64,000 nt of DNA from Aureococcus anophagefferens (taxonomy: Eukaryota; Sar; Pelagophyceae; Pelagomonadales; Pelagomonadaceae): the NCBI RefSeq assembly GCF_000186865.1, contig NW_008705573.1, forward strand, positions 2,373 through 66,372. The letters are read 5' to 3'. The notes beneath the pieces are model-generated. The model saw only the letters and a list, made by a program, of their open reading frames with translations, did not search any database and was not told the origin of the DNA. A program made the position numbers and the translations under genes. This document shows positions 42,632-49,752 of the stretch, one piece after another. How positions within the stretch are numbered: position 1 is the first letter of the stretch; every line of letters begins with the position of its first letter.

Positions 42632-45600
42632 TTAAATGGCCGCATCGGCATCGACGCCGAAGCAGAGCGGCAGCTCGGCCGCGTTGGTCGGGGCGTCGAG
42701 GCAGCGGCTTTGGACGTCCGCGGGCGCGCGCGTCTCCGATCTCTCCAGCTTCAGAGACGCTTCGGCATTTTCCACGAGCGAGATCACCGACGGCCCCACC
42801 GGGTCGTCGTCCGCGGGCACCTCGGGAGGTTCCTCGGCGGCGCCCTCGCCTTTGGACATGCGCAGCCGGATGGCCTGCGTGACGCAGCACAGGGCGGCGA
42901 AGGCCAGGCCGATGAGCGAGATGAGGTCGATCTCGAGCTCGAGGCAGAACTCGATGAGCGCCTGCGCGGGCACCGAGGCGACCGCGAGGCCCACCATCAT
43001 CTCGCCGAATTTTTTCGTGCTCCAGCCCGCGCGGATGTGGTCGTCCTCAATGTAGGTCTCCGCGTAGAGCATGATCGTCAAGAAGAGCTGCAGGAACACC
43101 ATGCCTGACATGACGGTCGAGAAGCGGTCCGTGCTGTCGTCTACATATGGCTGATAGTACACGTAGATGCAGGTGAAAAAGAGACTCATGAGCGCGGCCG
43201 TGTACAATTTGCCGATGGAGTCGTCGTCGTAGAGAACCATGAATCCCGTCAGGCAGATGCGGCGGAAGCACTCGGCGCACTCGAACCACCAGCACCGGGG
43301 TTCGTATTCGTCGAAGAGGAAAGTGAGGTGCGAACACGCGGGATCGATGGACCGATGCTCGATGACCATGTTCTGCCCGACGGTCGTCAGGACGCCGAGC
43401 GCGGCGTCCTTCGATTCCTCGGGGAAATTTGCGAGCGCCTCCTGGACATGGAGGAACTCGACGGCCTTGTGGTGCACGGCGAGAACCTTGGCGAAGCGCT
43501 CCGACGACACGAGGTGGTCCGCGCCGTCGCCGGCCTCGGCGGCGGCCCGCTTCGCGTTGAGGACGCGCTCTGCCGAGGCTTTCACGCTCTTCTTCGCGGG
43601 CGACGCCGGGACGAGCGAGTACTTGCGCTTCACGGCCTTCTCCTCGGCCGTGTCCGTCTCCGCGACCTCGACGGGCTCTTCCAGAGCGAGCGTCCGGTCC
43701 TCGCCGGACAGGATCTTCGACACGAACGCGTCGTAGTCCGTCGGCGCGATGCTGTCCCGCACCGAGTACAGCAGCGCGAAGAAGCCCAGCGGGATGCCGA
43801 CGGGGTAGATGACGATGCAGATGTAGGCGTAGATCGCGTGCGATTTGTACCGGTCCGACCGACAGGAAACGGTGTAGTCCGCCGCGAGCCAGGAGCCGTT
43901 TTTGAACGGGGACCCGTCGGGCTCGTCGTCGTAGTCGTCGTCGCAAAACAGAGACGCGAAGATGACGTTAGAAACCTGTGTGGAAATCAACCGGTGAGCT
44001 GGGACGTCGGGGCCGAACTTCAACATTCTCCAGCTCGGCCAAATCGAAGTCGATTCGGGTGATTTTTGGACGAATCGATCGCTCTCTGATTTCCACACAG
44101 TTGGAGACCGTCGTGTAGAGCATATGCGTGCCGAGAAGCCCGAATAGCATGAATATCTCGCGCGACTTGGGGTGCCGGCGCCTGAGGAGCTCGTACGCGC
44201 CGAAGAGCAGCGCCAGGCCGACGATCGGCAGCACCGTGTACCTGTGTGGAATCATTTGAAGTTCTCTAGCTCGGCCAAATCGAAGTCGTTTTGGCTGACT
44301 TTTGGACGGATCGATTGCTCTCGTCGAGTTCTCGAAGCAGAGCCGAAGAGTCTGGTCCAAACCGTTCGATTACGCGCACATTGAAGTCGGATTGAAGATT
44401 TCCACACAGGTCTGTACATCACGAGCTTCGAGAGGAAGTCCCACTGCGGCCGGTCGCATTCCGTCGACGCGGCGAAGAACGCGCTCGGGTCGAAGCCGAA
44501 GATGGACAGCGACTCCGTGAGCTTCGCGAAGATGTCGGGGAAATCGACGGCGGAGAACGTCTCGCCGAAGGCGCCGACGATCTGGACCGTGACCAGCAGG
44601 ATCTTGAGCTTGGGCACGAGGAAGGGGAGCCACTTGTCGTTGAGGCTCGCGAAGACGTCCGTCTTCTGCATCGCGTCGACGTACGCGCCGAGCCAGTGCT
44701 TCACAGCGTAGTAGCCGACGGCGACGACGACGACGAGGCCCGCGAAGAAGGCGAAGATGAAGAGGAGGAGTTTCTGCGTGTCCTCGCCGCCGCCCTCGCA
44801 AGCGACGCAGCGGAACGTCTCCGCCTCGAGGTAGTAGTCGCGCTTGCACAAAGCGCACCGCGGGCCCGCGTGGTTGTAGGCGCACGACGCCGTCGGCGCG
44901 CGCCACGACGTCGGGTTGAGCTTGTTCCAGAGATCGACGGAGGAGTCCGGGCAGTAGTCGTCCGACGCGCATTTCAAGACGTTCAAGCTCAAGCTCGTCG
45001 ACCGCCAGTAGCCGTCGTCGGGCACGAGCGCGTGGCCGCCGCTGCACGTCGCGTCGTCGGGGCACGTGTGGCACGAGTCCGTCGGCTCGAACGACACTTT
45101 CCCGCGGGGACACAGCGTGCAGACGCCCGAGTTGTAGTACTCGCCCGCGACGCAGTCCGTGAGGTTTACGGACGCGTCCGCCACCAGCCCCGCGGCGCTG
45201 ATCGTCGCCTCGAGCGCGACGATCGACCCCGGGACTTTCGTGATGGTCACTCCACCAAACGTCGCGAGGCCCGCGAAGACCTCCGTCGAGATGTCGCCCG
45301 TGAGCGTCGCGCCGGCGTCGTCCGTCGACAGGATCACCGCGTCGCCCTCCGACGTCCGCACGCGGTGGCCGTAGAGGTCCAGGAGCTCGACCTCGATGGA
45401 GCCGTTGACCTCGACGCCGCTCTCGACCGCGGCCAGGCGCCCCGAGCTTTGGGAGTCGACGAAGGCGAGGCTCTGGACCGGCGTCGCGAGGATTTCGCCG
45501 AAGAGCGCCTCGTTCGCTCGCGCGCGGCCGACGCGCGGCTCCGGCGACGCGCCGGGCGAGTAGTACGCCGCGCCGCCGCCGCCGAGCGGGGCCCGGTTCC

Positions 45601-48562
45601 CCGCGACGAGGTCGCCGGCGGCGTCGAGGACGACGACGCCCGCGATCGCGTCGTCGTCGCCGGAGATCTTGACCGCGCCGCCGTCGCCCGTCGCCGCGAC
45701 GTTGCCGGCGAGCGTCGTGTTCCCGAGGCTCACGAATTCCGCGGGCGGCGCGACGAGGACGGCGCCCGCGTCGACCGCGGCGTCGTTGCGGAGGAAGCTC
45801 GTGCGCGACGTCGCGAGCGAGCTGGAGGTCGCGACGCTCGCCGCGCCGCCGCTCCCGAAGACGGCCGCGTTGCCGGCGAAGACGCAGTCCGTCGCGTTGA
45901 CGACCGAGAAATCCGTCGCGGCGAGCGCGGCCGCGTCCTCGGCGGTATTGTTCAAAAACGCCGTGTTCCGGAAAACGACTCTGGCGCCCTCGGACGTCTG
46001 GACGACGCCCGCGCCGTAGGTGCATTCGTTCGAGGAGAACGTCGCGTCGGTAATCGTCGCGACGCCGGACTTGAGAAGCAACGCGGGGCCGCCGACGCCG
46101 CCCGACACGGTCGTGCGGTTCGCGGCGAGCGCGGCGACCTGAAGCTCGATCGCGCCCGCGTCCCACTGCGTGTACGTGCCGAGGATGTCGACGTCCACGA
46201 GGCTCACGGCCCCGCCGCTGGAATAGAGGACCGCGGCGTAGTCGTACGCGAAGCACCGGTCGAAGGTCGCGTTCGCGAGGAACACGGAGTGCGGCTTGGA
46301 CGCGCTGATGCCCTCCGCGTCGACCATCGAGTCGGAGACGCGCAGGTCGACGGCGTCGAGCACCGCGTCCGCGCCGACGCTCACGATGCCCACGGACGCG
46401 CCGTCCTTGGCGCTCGACACGTTCCGGAGCGTCAGGAGCGCCGTTCTCTCCACGTACGCGAGCGCGCCCTCGGACGTGACCTGGTTCCCGACGGAGGCGA
46501 CGTCGCGGACGCGGCAGTCCGAGCCGACGGTGCAGTAGAGCGCTCCGCCGTACGTCGTCGCGCCGTCCGCGAGCGTCAAACCCTGGATCGTGGCCTCGCC
46601 GTAGTCCGAGACGTACACGTGAGCGCCGGCGGCCGACGTCGACCCGACGACGGCCGTCGTGCCGGACCCGTCGACGACGCCGTCCCTGATGAACGCGAAG
46701 CCTCCTTCGAACGCGCCGTCGTTGCCCGTCGCGGAGCTCTCGGCCAGCTTGACGGCGCTGGCGGCGTCGAGGTAGAGCGCGCCGCCCTGGTCCGCGACGT
46801 TCGCGTCCAAAACGACGCGAGTCAGGTTCGCGGACGCGGACGCGAGCGCCATCGCGCCGCCGGAGCTCGCCGCGCAGCCCGTCACGGAGGCGCCGCTCAC
46901 GAAGAGCGACGTACCGGTCAGCGCCGCGCCGCCGCCGAAGCCCTCGACCGCGGTCGCGTTCTCGACGACGAGGTCCGTCGCCGTCGCCGCGCAGCTCGTC
47001 AAGCTCAGGCACCCGCCGCCTTCCGTCGCCGCGGAGTTGACCGCCGTGACGGCGTGGAGCGAAACGTTCGCGTTCTGCGCGAAGAGGAACCCGCCGGTGG
47101 CGCCCGAGGACGCGTCGCTGACGGCGGAGCTCATCGACACATCCATCGTCTCGTCGATCTCGTCGCTCATGTACGCGTACACGACGCCGCCGTCGCCGAA
47201 GGCGTTGTTGTTGGCGAAGGTCGCGTCGGCGAGGTACGTCCCGACGGCGTCCCCCGTCAAGTAAGGAAAGTCCGAGGGGCAGAGCGTCGGGTTCGGGCTG
47301 TGGTACAGGAATCCCCCCGAGCCCGACGCGCCGTTCGTCGTCGCCACGAAATTCGATAGCTCCACGCGGCAGGCCGTCGCGAAGATGGCGCCGCCGTCCC
47401 CCTCCATCGCCACGTTGTTGGAAAACGTCACGGCGGCCGCGCGCGCGGCCTCGCGGACGCCGTCTCCGGCGTAGACGAGCCCGTAGTTCGAAGCGTAGAT
47501 CGCGCCGCCCGCGCCCGCGGCCTTGTTGCCGTCGAACGACGTGCCCGGCCGCAGCGTCAACGTGTCGGGCTGCTCGACGAAGAGGCCGCCGCCGTCGCCC
47601 GGCGCGACGTTCGACCGCACGGTCGTGTCCCCCAAGACGACCTCCTCCGAGTTGGGGCAGACGAAGAGGCCGCCGCCCTCGCCGCCCTCGGCGTTGTACT
47701 GGTAGTAGGCCCAGAAGGCCGAGACGCCCGCGGCGTTGCCGACGATGTCGCAGCCCCAGACGCGGAGTTTCTCGCCGCAGAAGTAGACGCCGCCGCCGTC
47801 GATCGAGTAGTCCCCGTCGTCAAAGTAGTCGTAGTAGGACCCGCCTCCCGCCGCCGCGCCCTCCGTGATGACGAGGTCGCGCAGCGTCAGCGAGCCCGCG
47901 GAGCTGAGGACCCGCGTCGTGCCGTTGTTCCCGCTGAGTTCGACGCCTGCCGCGCCGCGGAGCACCACGTCCGATTTGTTGTTCGAGAGCTCGATCTCGG
48001 AATCGAGCACGAGGCTCGCCGTGATCGTCACGTCCGCGCAGACGTCCGCGGCGACGACGGCCGCGAGTTCGTCGTAGGTCGCGGCTTCGTAGGACGTCCG
48101 GCCGCTCGGGCACGCGGAGGAGCAGCTCCCGCACGCGCGCGGGCACGCGTCCGCGATATCCGCGGCCTCGGATTCGTCGTAGAGGGCCGCGTACTTGCTC
48201 GCGTAGGCCTCGCAGTCCCAGCGCTCGTGGTCGGCGCACGTCAGCCCCTGGGCGTCGACGAACGTCGCGTCGTCCACGCAGGTGTCGTCGGTGTCTTCGA
48301 ACGGGTCCCCCTTCGTGGGCGCGGCCGCGTCCGTCGCCGTCGGAGCGCTCATCGCGCTCGTCGCCGTTGGAGCGGCCGTCGCGGTTGTCGCGGTCGGCGC
48401 CGCGGTCGCGCTCGTCACGGTCGGCGCCGCGGTCGCGGTTGTCGCGGTTGGCGCAGCCGCGATCGCCTCGGTGGTTGGCGCCATCGTCTCGTTGCTGTCG
48501 TAGTAGTACTCCTCCGAGAGGACGGCCCTGGCCAGCGCGGCCAGCAACAAGCGGCTGAACAT
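42632..48562 (-). CDS. Giant secreted/membrane beta-helix protein with multi-TM C-terminus
   Basis: Three exons (48562-44418, 44241-44109, 43975-42632) give ~1,873 residues. Order: signal peptide (MFSRLLLAALARAVLS); Thr/Ala/Pro 9-residue repeats; a Cys-rich ShK-like stretch (WDCEAYASKYAAL...CPRACGSC); ~900 residues of right-handed parallel beta-helix repeats of polymorphic outer-membrane-protein type (GGGVYFCGE, GGGLFVEQPD, GGAIYASNYG, GGALYLDAAS); Cys-rich GCC2/GCC3- and EGF-like modules (GVCTLCPRGKVSFEPTDSCHTCPD; CALCKRDYYL). About eight transmembrane segments and an acidic tail follow. It is likely a surface adhesin or receptor. The start at 48562 is set by the signal peptide. Both introns look like inserted introners. 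Confidence 0.88.
43976..44108 (-). mobile_element. Introner-like element b: 133-nt intron with 13-bp TIRs
   Basis: Read on the minus strand it starts with target-derived GTCTCCAAC. CTGTGTGGAAATC and GATTTCCACACAG are perfect 13-bp inverted repeats bounding the element. The acceptor CAG is followed by GTTTCTAAC, a duplicate of the target with two changes. Removal joins TT to VSNVIFASLF. The core GACTTCGATTTGGCCGAGCT is shared with element a. Confidence 0.92.
44242..44417 (-). mobile_element. Introner-like element a: 176-nt intron with TIRs
   Basis: Donor GTACAG at 44417; inverted repeats CTGTGTGGAAATC and GATTCCACACAG (one base shorter); acceptor CAG|GTACAC. GTACA is repeated at both ends. 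Removal joins LVM-YTVLPIVGLALLFG in frame. The internal CGTCCAAAAGTCAGCC and GACTTCGATTTGGCCGAGCT cores match element b. Confidence 0.92.
48328..48465 (-). repeat. 27-bp tandem repeats encoding APTATTATA
   Basis: About five units of nine residues (APTATTATA, APTVTSATA, APTATTATA, APTATSAMS, APTATDAA) just after the signal peptide of the giant surface protein. Probably an O-glycosylated spacer. Confidence 0.85.
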
Positions 48563-48657
48563 ACTCGCGTCGCCGACAGCGTCGGGGGAGCTAGAGCGCG
48601 GCTGCCATTGCTCCAGGGAGCTCCTCCCTGCAGAACACTCGGCCTCACTCTTCACCA

Positions 48658-49752
48658 TTAGCCCGGCTCGCCCATCCCCAGCTCCGCGGCGGCCGCGCGC
48701 AGCTCGTCGGTCGTCGGGTGGCCCACGGTGCCCGCGAGCTGCGCCGTCGCGCGCGCGAGGTCGTCCTCCGACGCGTCGTCGGCGCCGGCGAGGAGCGCGG
48801 ACGCGAGCTCGATGCGCGCGCGGCGCTCCTTGGCCGAGTTCGGCCGGTCGCCGGTCGTGTCGTTCGTGAGGCTCGACCAGTCCTCGCCCGTCTGCCAGTC
48901 GTCGCCGGGCGTCGGCTCCATGGACGCTAGCGGCCGCCGCCGCCGCGAGCCCGCGAGCTCGAGCGCCTCGCGCACTCGCGCGAGCGTCTTCTCGTCCAGG
49001 TGCACGTCGACGTCGCGCGCGGGCCGCGCCGCGAGCTCGCGCGCCGAGTCGCCGTAGCGCCAGCGGCCGCCGACGTGCGCGAGCTGCGGCAGGTCCGGGT
49101 CCGCGCCGGCCTCGACGAGGGCCGTCGCGCAGCGCGGCCGGCCCTCGTAGACGCACGTGTGCAGCGGCCGCTGGCCCGCGTGGTCGACGAGGTTCGGGTC
49201 CGCCCCGAGGCGCAGCAGGAGGCGCACGATCTCGTCGCTCTGGGCCTACCGAGAGCGACAGGGTTTCGAGGCCTCGGGCGCGAAACACGCGTGGACGCTG
49301 CTCCGCGCCGAGATGATCGCGCAGCCCAGCGGCGACATGCCGAAGGTGTCCGCGGGGAGGTACAGCGCGTTGACGCACGCGGTGCCCCTCCGCCGCCGGA
49401 GCTCGATGACCATGGCCTGCTCGCATTTGCTGACGTCGTCCTGGTAGTTCGTCGCGCGCTTGATCGCCGTGAAAAACGCGCGGCCGTAGTCGTCGGCCTC
49501 GCTGTAGACGGCGCCCGGCCGGCAGCTCGCATCCGCGACGCGGGGCCCGCGCGGCTCCGCGAGCGCGGGCAGCAGCTGGCAGTGCGGCACGAGCAGCCAG
49601 CGCGGCGCCTCGGCGGCGGTGAAGGGCAGCCGCGGCGCGGGCGCCTCGGGAGCTCCGGCCGGCGCCGGCGCCTCGGCCGGCGCCTCAGCGGCGGCAGCCT
49701 CGTCCGGCGGCATCTCGACCGGCAGCTGCCGGCGGATGTAGTTTTTCATCAT
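48658..49752 (-). CDS. Ankyrin-repeat protein
   Basis: Exons 49752-49309 and 49245-48658 give 343 residues. The N-terminal part is Ala/Pro/Glu-rich. Ankyrin repeats follow: FGMSPLGCAIISA|QSDEIVRLLLRLGADPNLVD and HAGQRPLHTCVYEGRPRCATALVEAGADPDLP. The C-terminus is acidic and helical (ARIELASALLAGADDASEDDLARA). The upstream part contains FTAIKRATNYQDDVSKCEQAMVIELRRRRGTACVNALYLP, possibly a degenerate repeat. It likely acts as a protein-interaction scaffold. The stop lies 96 bp upstream of the next gene's start on the same strand. Confidence 0.75.
49246..49308 (-). other. Intron, 63 nt, GC-AG, imperfect flanking duplication
   Basis: Donor TCG|GCGCGGAGC at 49308, acceptor CGGTAG|GCCCAGAGC at 49246. 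The nine bases after each junction match 7/9, as expected of an eroded target duplication. It restores an ankyrin helix (CAIISA-QSDEIVRLLL). A GT donor 12 nt downstream also keeps the frame but adds four residues. Confidence 0.65.

Follow-up and report, generated by a model that had tools for sequence, protein, structure and literature searches.

The window, that is, the whole stretch of 64,000 nucleotides of Aureococcus anophagefferens DNA analysed here, has a GC content of 63–80% per 2 kb and contains one minus-strand beta-helix/membrane-protein gene with a match to the Beta_helix profile (PF13229). This gene hosts two elements with terminal inverted repeats (TIRs), named a and b, and each of its two predicted introns corresponds to one element plus one copy of a target site duplication (TSD) of 8 bp. 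The features of the gene, by window position, are as follows.

42632..43975, minus strand: exon downstream of intron a, running to the stop codon
43968..43975, minus strand: exonic TSD copy of element a, gene strand GTTTCTAA, identity between the copies 6/8
43976..44108, minus strand: predicted intron a, 133 nt, phase 0, GT-AG
43976..44100, minus strand: introner element a, 125 bp, with perfect TIRs of 14 bp and 78 bp lost internally relative to a 203-bp form
44101..44108, minus strand: intronic TSD copy of element a, gene strand GTCTCCAA, source of the 5' splice site GT
44109..44241, minus strand: exon between the introners, 133 bp, a separate matched piece in the own-genome protein search
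44234..44241, minus strand: exonic TSD copy of element b, gene strand GTACACGG, identity between the copies 5/8
44242..44417, minus strand: predicted intron b, 176 nt, phase 2, GT-AG
44242..44409, minus strand: introner element b, 168 bp, with a 1-base deletion in one TIR arm
44410..44417, minus strand: intronic TSD copy of element b, gene strand GTACAGAC, source of the 5' splice site GT
44418..49426, minus strand: exon upstream of intron b, open from the first ATG and containing beta-helix repeats; the true start is probably further in

Both introns are predicted from the joining of the frame on their removal and from uninterrupted paralogues. Excision of 43976–44108 and 44242–44417 yields a single open frame ending at 42632, in agreement with the intron limits given by an earlier sequence-only reading of this DNA, and without excision the first stop is encountered inside element b (44254). 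The exon of 133 bp left between a and b is a single case that can be placed beside the idea that introners insert between nucleosomes and that nearby insertions produce nucleosome-sized exons.

A repeat finder detected a 61-nt block common to a and b with 89% identity, as well as GATTTCCACACAG as the plus-strand right end of both elements, which bears out the proposal that they are related elements with TIRs and common internal blocks. An internal 20-mer of the elements occurs twice in the window (0.00 expected), and TIR-like matches with up to three mismatches number five, three of them exact, against 5.25 expected by chance. The perfect TIRs attributed to element b had been taken as a sign of recent insertion, and this point is not supported. 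It is the arms of a that are perfect; the plus-strand left arm of b, CTGTGTGGAATC, is one base short, and the b arms pair perfectly only over the inner 10 bp. Moreover, b has lost about 29 bp near its sense 3' end and 5 bases near its 5' end compared with the 203-bp form, and the TSDs of a (6/8) and b (5/8) belong to the 11 most decayed among 100 sampled elements. Decayed TSDs together with internal deletions speak against recent insertion, and a and b appear from their letters to be older, internally deleted members of a family. These shortened copies still end at intact splice ends, a detail added to a known element.

The 49.05-Mb assembly (86 contigs) was searched for the family. The exact 13-bp TIR is found widely, with 408 + 393 = 801 occurrences against 0 for the reversed control, and its one-base variant CTGTGTGCAAATC adds 153 + 153 = 306 occurrences (control 0). 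Since every copy has two ends, these 1107 ends correspond to at least about 554 copies, a count outside which copies with mutated ends fall. A DNA search with the element gave 1514 first-look candidates, 40 of which were scored, and 41 matches among those listed. For closer analysis, 100 distinct elements were drawn from three samples: the best matches to element a (35), ends with unusual neighbouring bases (48), and the first 20 exact-TIR sites, which contributed 17 new elements besides two already present in the second sample and one site without a pair. Nine fetched loci without a TIR/TSD pair under the set limits were dropped (L017, L021, L119, L121, L135, L143, L153, L155, and L156), several of which do pair if indels or looser limits are allowed.

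Exactly 203 bp is the length of 55/100 sampled elements, and identity to the majority form ranges from 0.35 to 0.98, with a median of 0.91. The two TSD copies are identical at 8/8 bases in 73 elements, at 7 in 16, at 6 in 7, and at 5 in 4. The presence of a target duplication claimed for a and b is thus upheld, whereas the proposed lengths of 5 or 9 are replaced by 8 bp. A full-length intron of this family accordingly measures 203 + 8 = 211 nucleotides, and the introns of the window are shorter (133 and 176). Genome searches, the 100 elements, and the flank tests described below concur that highly similar introns are present in many genes. Several family copies are clustered locally at L112 and L139, with three of them within about 2.1 kb in L112.

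With this family in hand, the question arises of whether a and b stem from one insertion followed by local duplication inside the gene, as a tandem intron copy, instead of two insertions. Their common orientation within one gene and the 61-nt block shared at 89% are what such a duplication would leave. Nevertheless, the 8-bp target copies differ between the two sites, as do the internal deletions relative to the 203-bp form; only short exon matches were found around the elements in the repeat search, and a and b each match the dispersed family. Local duplication is therefore an explanation with hardly any probability left to it.

For the coding context of the copies, 150 bp on each flank were scored by codon usage, with the window gene as the sole training set of the model. 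For 97 of the 100 elements the frame could be evaluated, the other three having flanks that were too short. Both flanks were coding-like in 87/97, on the same strand in 81/87, and the frame was continuous after removal of the element plus 8 bases in 80/87; the remaining seven comprised six with flanks on different strands and one out of frame. When the test was repeated on 95 copies, leaving out the window gene's own two, removal of 8 bases gave 79/80 continuous frames, compared with 0/79 for 7 bases and 1/79 for 9 bases. Removal of 2, 5, or 11 bases performs equally well, so that frame continuity determines the excised length modulo 3 only, and the exact value of 8 comes from the target copies. 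In a mononucleotide-shuffled window, 0/1000 positions had two coding-like flanks.

The splice-site dinucleotides follow the same arrangement. On the coding strand the TSD starts with GC in 41, GT in 37, GA in one, and CG in one of 80 copies, which makes GY (GT or GC) the start in 78/80, compared with 206/1049 random continuous coding positions. Considering either strand, GT or GC stands at a TSD end in 99/100 elements against a background of 0.341. At their sense 3' end, 81/81 resolved copies carry AG, in both orientations (49 F, 32 R), and 66/81 retain the mirror CT at the sense 5' end, the pattern expected if selection for splicing holds the 3' AG and not the 5' TIR end, with the proviso that samples chosen by well-kept ends may inflate both figures. 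At the sequence level these counts agree with the assignment, made earlier for a and b, of the 5' splice site to the target copy and of the 3' AG to the TIR end. A 203-bp copy at L007:2093-2296 has a perfect TSD, GATCGACG, and flanks in frame on the plus strand, and it can be read as a GA-AG intron or as an insertion that is left unspliced.

The sampled copies are strongly concentrated in coding sequence. Among the 95 copies outside the window gene, two flanks were coding-like in 84, one in 11, and none in 0, while 3000 random window positions gave 1824, 760, and 416 (14%), figures for which the samples come from well-kept ends, the background from one window, and the coding model from one gene. 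Selection on splicing alone offers no obvious explanation for this shortage of copies outside coding sequence. Uniform insertion combined with a GY filter acting on coding copies would predict that non-coding copies are common, and 0/95 were seen. In addition, GY occurs at both TSD ends in 31/100 elements compared with one end in 99/100, a disparity not expected from a symmetric target motif. It is conceivable, though we consider it rather unlikely, that insertion itself, and not survival alone, is coupled to exons and splice-competent sites; if this were true, transcription- or splicing-coupled target choice would explain the bias toward both coding sequence and GY. According to Gozashti et al. 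2022, introners are enriched in genes in 161/175 genomes and a GC-rich target preference is suggested.

The same location is also compatible with an RNA route, by which spliced introns would enter mRNA by reverse splicing and, after reverse transcription, reach genes by recombination, the TIRs having a structural role in the RNA, where they form a stem with the splice sites at its base. Every sampled copy is located within or next to coding-like sequence (neither flank coding-like in 0/95 versus 416/3000 random window positions), and the RNA of intron a is predicted to fold with a terminal stem (z -5.14), the fold of whole intron b being weaker (z -1.49) and that of its interior, with the ends removed, reaching z +0.74. 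However, an 8-bp exon duplication, perfect in 73/100 elements, is the mark of DNA transposition, and reverse splicing would leave no exon duplicate. Furthermore, copies occur in both orientations (49 and 32), which is not expected of copying from a sense transcript. We accordingly regard the RNA route as very improbable.

Homologues of the host gene were sought with the spliced protein, for which 7981 best-sharing candidates were scored and two A. anophagefferens proteins were returned. The best match was JL720_15708, with 89% identity over 62% of the searched part, and the other was JL721_2871, with 42% identity over 84%. Inspection by eye showed JL720_15708 to be nearly letter-identical to the host protein outside several stretches that its published gene model skips, including the 133-bp exon 44109-44241, in conflict with the three-exon model. 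We take these skipped stretches to be probable modelling slips, and the paralogues favour inclusion of the exon. Short exons between introners may drop out of current gene models in this way.

A query of 138 residues spanning both junctions matched 60 places in the species' own genome, three of which are the expected separate pieces of the host gene itself. Among the 57 others, 36 span both junctions (start at or before query residue 11 and end at or after residue 66, counted by hand from the match table) in one piece too short for an intron, the best being C8:1647264-1647674, with 58% identity and within a 1462-aa frame; the other 21 match part of the query only and are uninformative on both sites jointly. 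The presence of the same introns in distant relatives would have spoken against insertion, and the paralogous places searched for it were in 36/57 cases uninterrupted at both sites. Both intron sites thus appear, on this comparison, to be new relative to the gene family.

These empty sites also bear on the possibility that a and b are MITEs nested in ordinary old introns that later became their hosts. MITEs are frequent in introns. In this case, however, the intron consists of the element and one 8-bp target copy with no further sequence, and the 36/57 paralogous places are intron-free at both sites. Nesting in older introns is a highly improbable account of these elements.

The 57 places themselves form a large paralogous family of beta-helix/membrane type, with open frames of up to 11467 aa (C3:512948-513364). 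For one paralogue, C14:374901-375378, the match is split into two pieces by 67 bp, seven codons past the position of intron a in the downstream direction; this gap is short and intron-like, and it may be unrelated to introners.

Taken together, both introns are very probably copies of a non-autonomous DNA transposon (MITE-like introners) that belong to a family of hundreds in the nuclear genome of A. anophagefferens. The TIRs, the copy number, the 8-bp TSDs, the restoration of the frame, the coding-strand GY and AG, and the insertion-free paralogue sites were directly computed. The mechanism suggested by them starts from a full element of 203 bp with TIRs CTGTGTGGAAATCAA, whose insertion, probably by a transposase acting in trans, would lead host repair to duplicate 8 bp of the exon. 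Each TIR ends in TTTCCACACAG at the element boundary on its outward strand, so that a 3' splice site is offered in either orientation. An upstream exon duplicate whose first two coding-strand bases are GT or GC would serve as the 5' splice site, and splicing, if it takes place as predicted, would take out 8 bases plus the element length, restoring the original exon and leaving the mRNA length unchanged. Insertions that could not be spliced would presumably be lost by selection. Raw sequence, with the frame, the paralogues, and the target copies as internal controls, thereby indicates a route by which a transposon, whichever way round it is inserted, can create a clean intron.

The elements are too short for a transposase gene, and their mobiliser would act in trans. 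The searches made for it yielded no transposase that shares the TIRs of the family. Profile searches of the own genome for MULE (PF10551) and IS1595/Merlin (PF12762) transposases gave no match while the controls matched; the hAT (PF05699, PF04937) and KDZ (PF18758) profiles matched neither the genome nor the controls and are hence uninformative. For the P-type profile PF21787, one match was listed in the own genome, C25:178372-178818 (L176), with an E value of 1.4e-9 and in-frame stops. The first 400 codons of this frame have GC at 94% of third positions together with seven TAG and one TAA, and the best relative found for it is a 614-aa protein with 36% identity. The family TIR with fewer than four mismatches was absent from the readable part of the surroundings of this match. 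P and hAT elements generate 8-bp TSDs, a feature that the TSDs of the present family match, and a link to a P or hAT mobiliser is a lead and no more.

An autonomous partner was also sought among TIR ends whose adjoining sequence departs from that of the 203-bp element, comprising 14 ends and then 34, of which 30 gave a locus. Most of these loci proved to be short family elements, and two places among them had no TIR partner, namely L143 and one place on C36 (L119, L121, and L155). The TIR at the C36 place has no partner at the spacing of the family, the nearest opposite arms being about 5 kb away without a target duplication, which reads as chance. Viral carriers fared similarly: a 15-mer occurs once each in the fetched parts of 75 viral-contig stretches, and 4/75 also have an opposite arm, with two mismatches at most, no farther than 8 kb away, in no case with a target duplication (best 4/8 bases); these occurrences were likewise read as chance.

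Elements of this kind are already in print for A. anophagefferens, and the gain of the present analysis is in detail. Introners of this species that carry one splice site and obtain the other from the duplicated target were reportedly described by Huff, Zilberman and Roy in 2016 (Nature 538:533), and PMC9860276 credits the algal elements to Huff et al. 2016, describing, with their TSDs and TIRs, a class of introners that bring their own 3' splice site and take the 5' site from the TSD. PMC7789003 reports A. anophagefferens introners with TIRs and with direct repeats whose length is constant, and PMC9481584 gives about 210 bp as the characteristic length of introner introns in this species. Compared by description, the present family agrees with the published one in species, TIRs, constant-length repeats, and intron length (about 210 bp versus 211 here), and at the sequence level also in carrying one splice site and co-opting the other from the duplicated exon. 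The sequence-only reading had likened a and b to the DNA-transposon-like introners of Aureococcus, a comparison that the TIRs, the 8-bp TSDs, the 801 exact ends, and the restoration of the frame all fit. The copies in the window differ from the published introners in being shorter (125 and 168 bp) and in having decayed TSDs.

Gain of introns across the genome through short repeats, some of them with a TSD or TIRs, is also a feature of the introners of Micromonas pusilla. That species is a green alga, and its introners, which are mentioned in PMC9860276 and PMC3488318, resemble the present family by description in this respect. In PMC9860276, no homology was found between introners of different genera. 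The same paper presents family 4 from an Aureococcus sp. metagenome assembly, which comes from the same genus and has an 8-bp TSD as well, but carries both splice sites and lengthens the mRNA by 12 bases, whereas the present family carries the 3' site only and would leave the mRNA length unchanged. The introners of Symbiodinium microadriaticum, according to PMC9860276, also combine TIRs with a carried 3' splice site and a TSD-derived 5' site, with a TSD of 4 bp in contrast to the 8 bp found here.

The 5' splice site may provide a further difference from the published A. anophagefferens introners. Roughly half the copies sampled have GC instead of GT there, which sits uneasily with the description of these introns as canonical in print and constitutes an added detail of the family. 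Aureococcus is listed in PMC7789003 among the species with more non-canonical introns.
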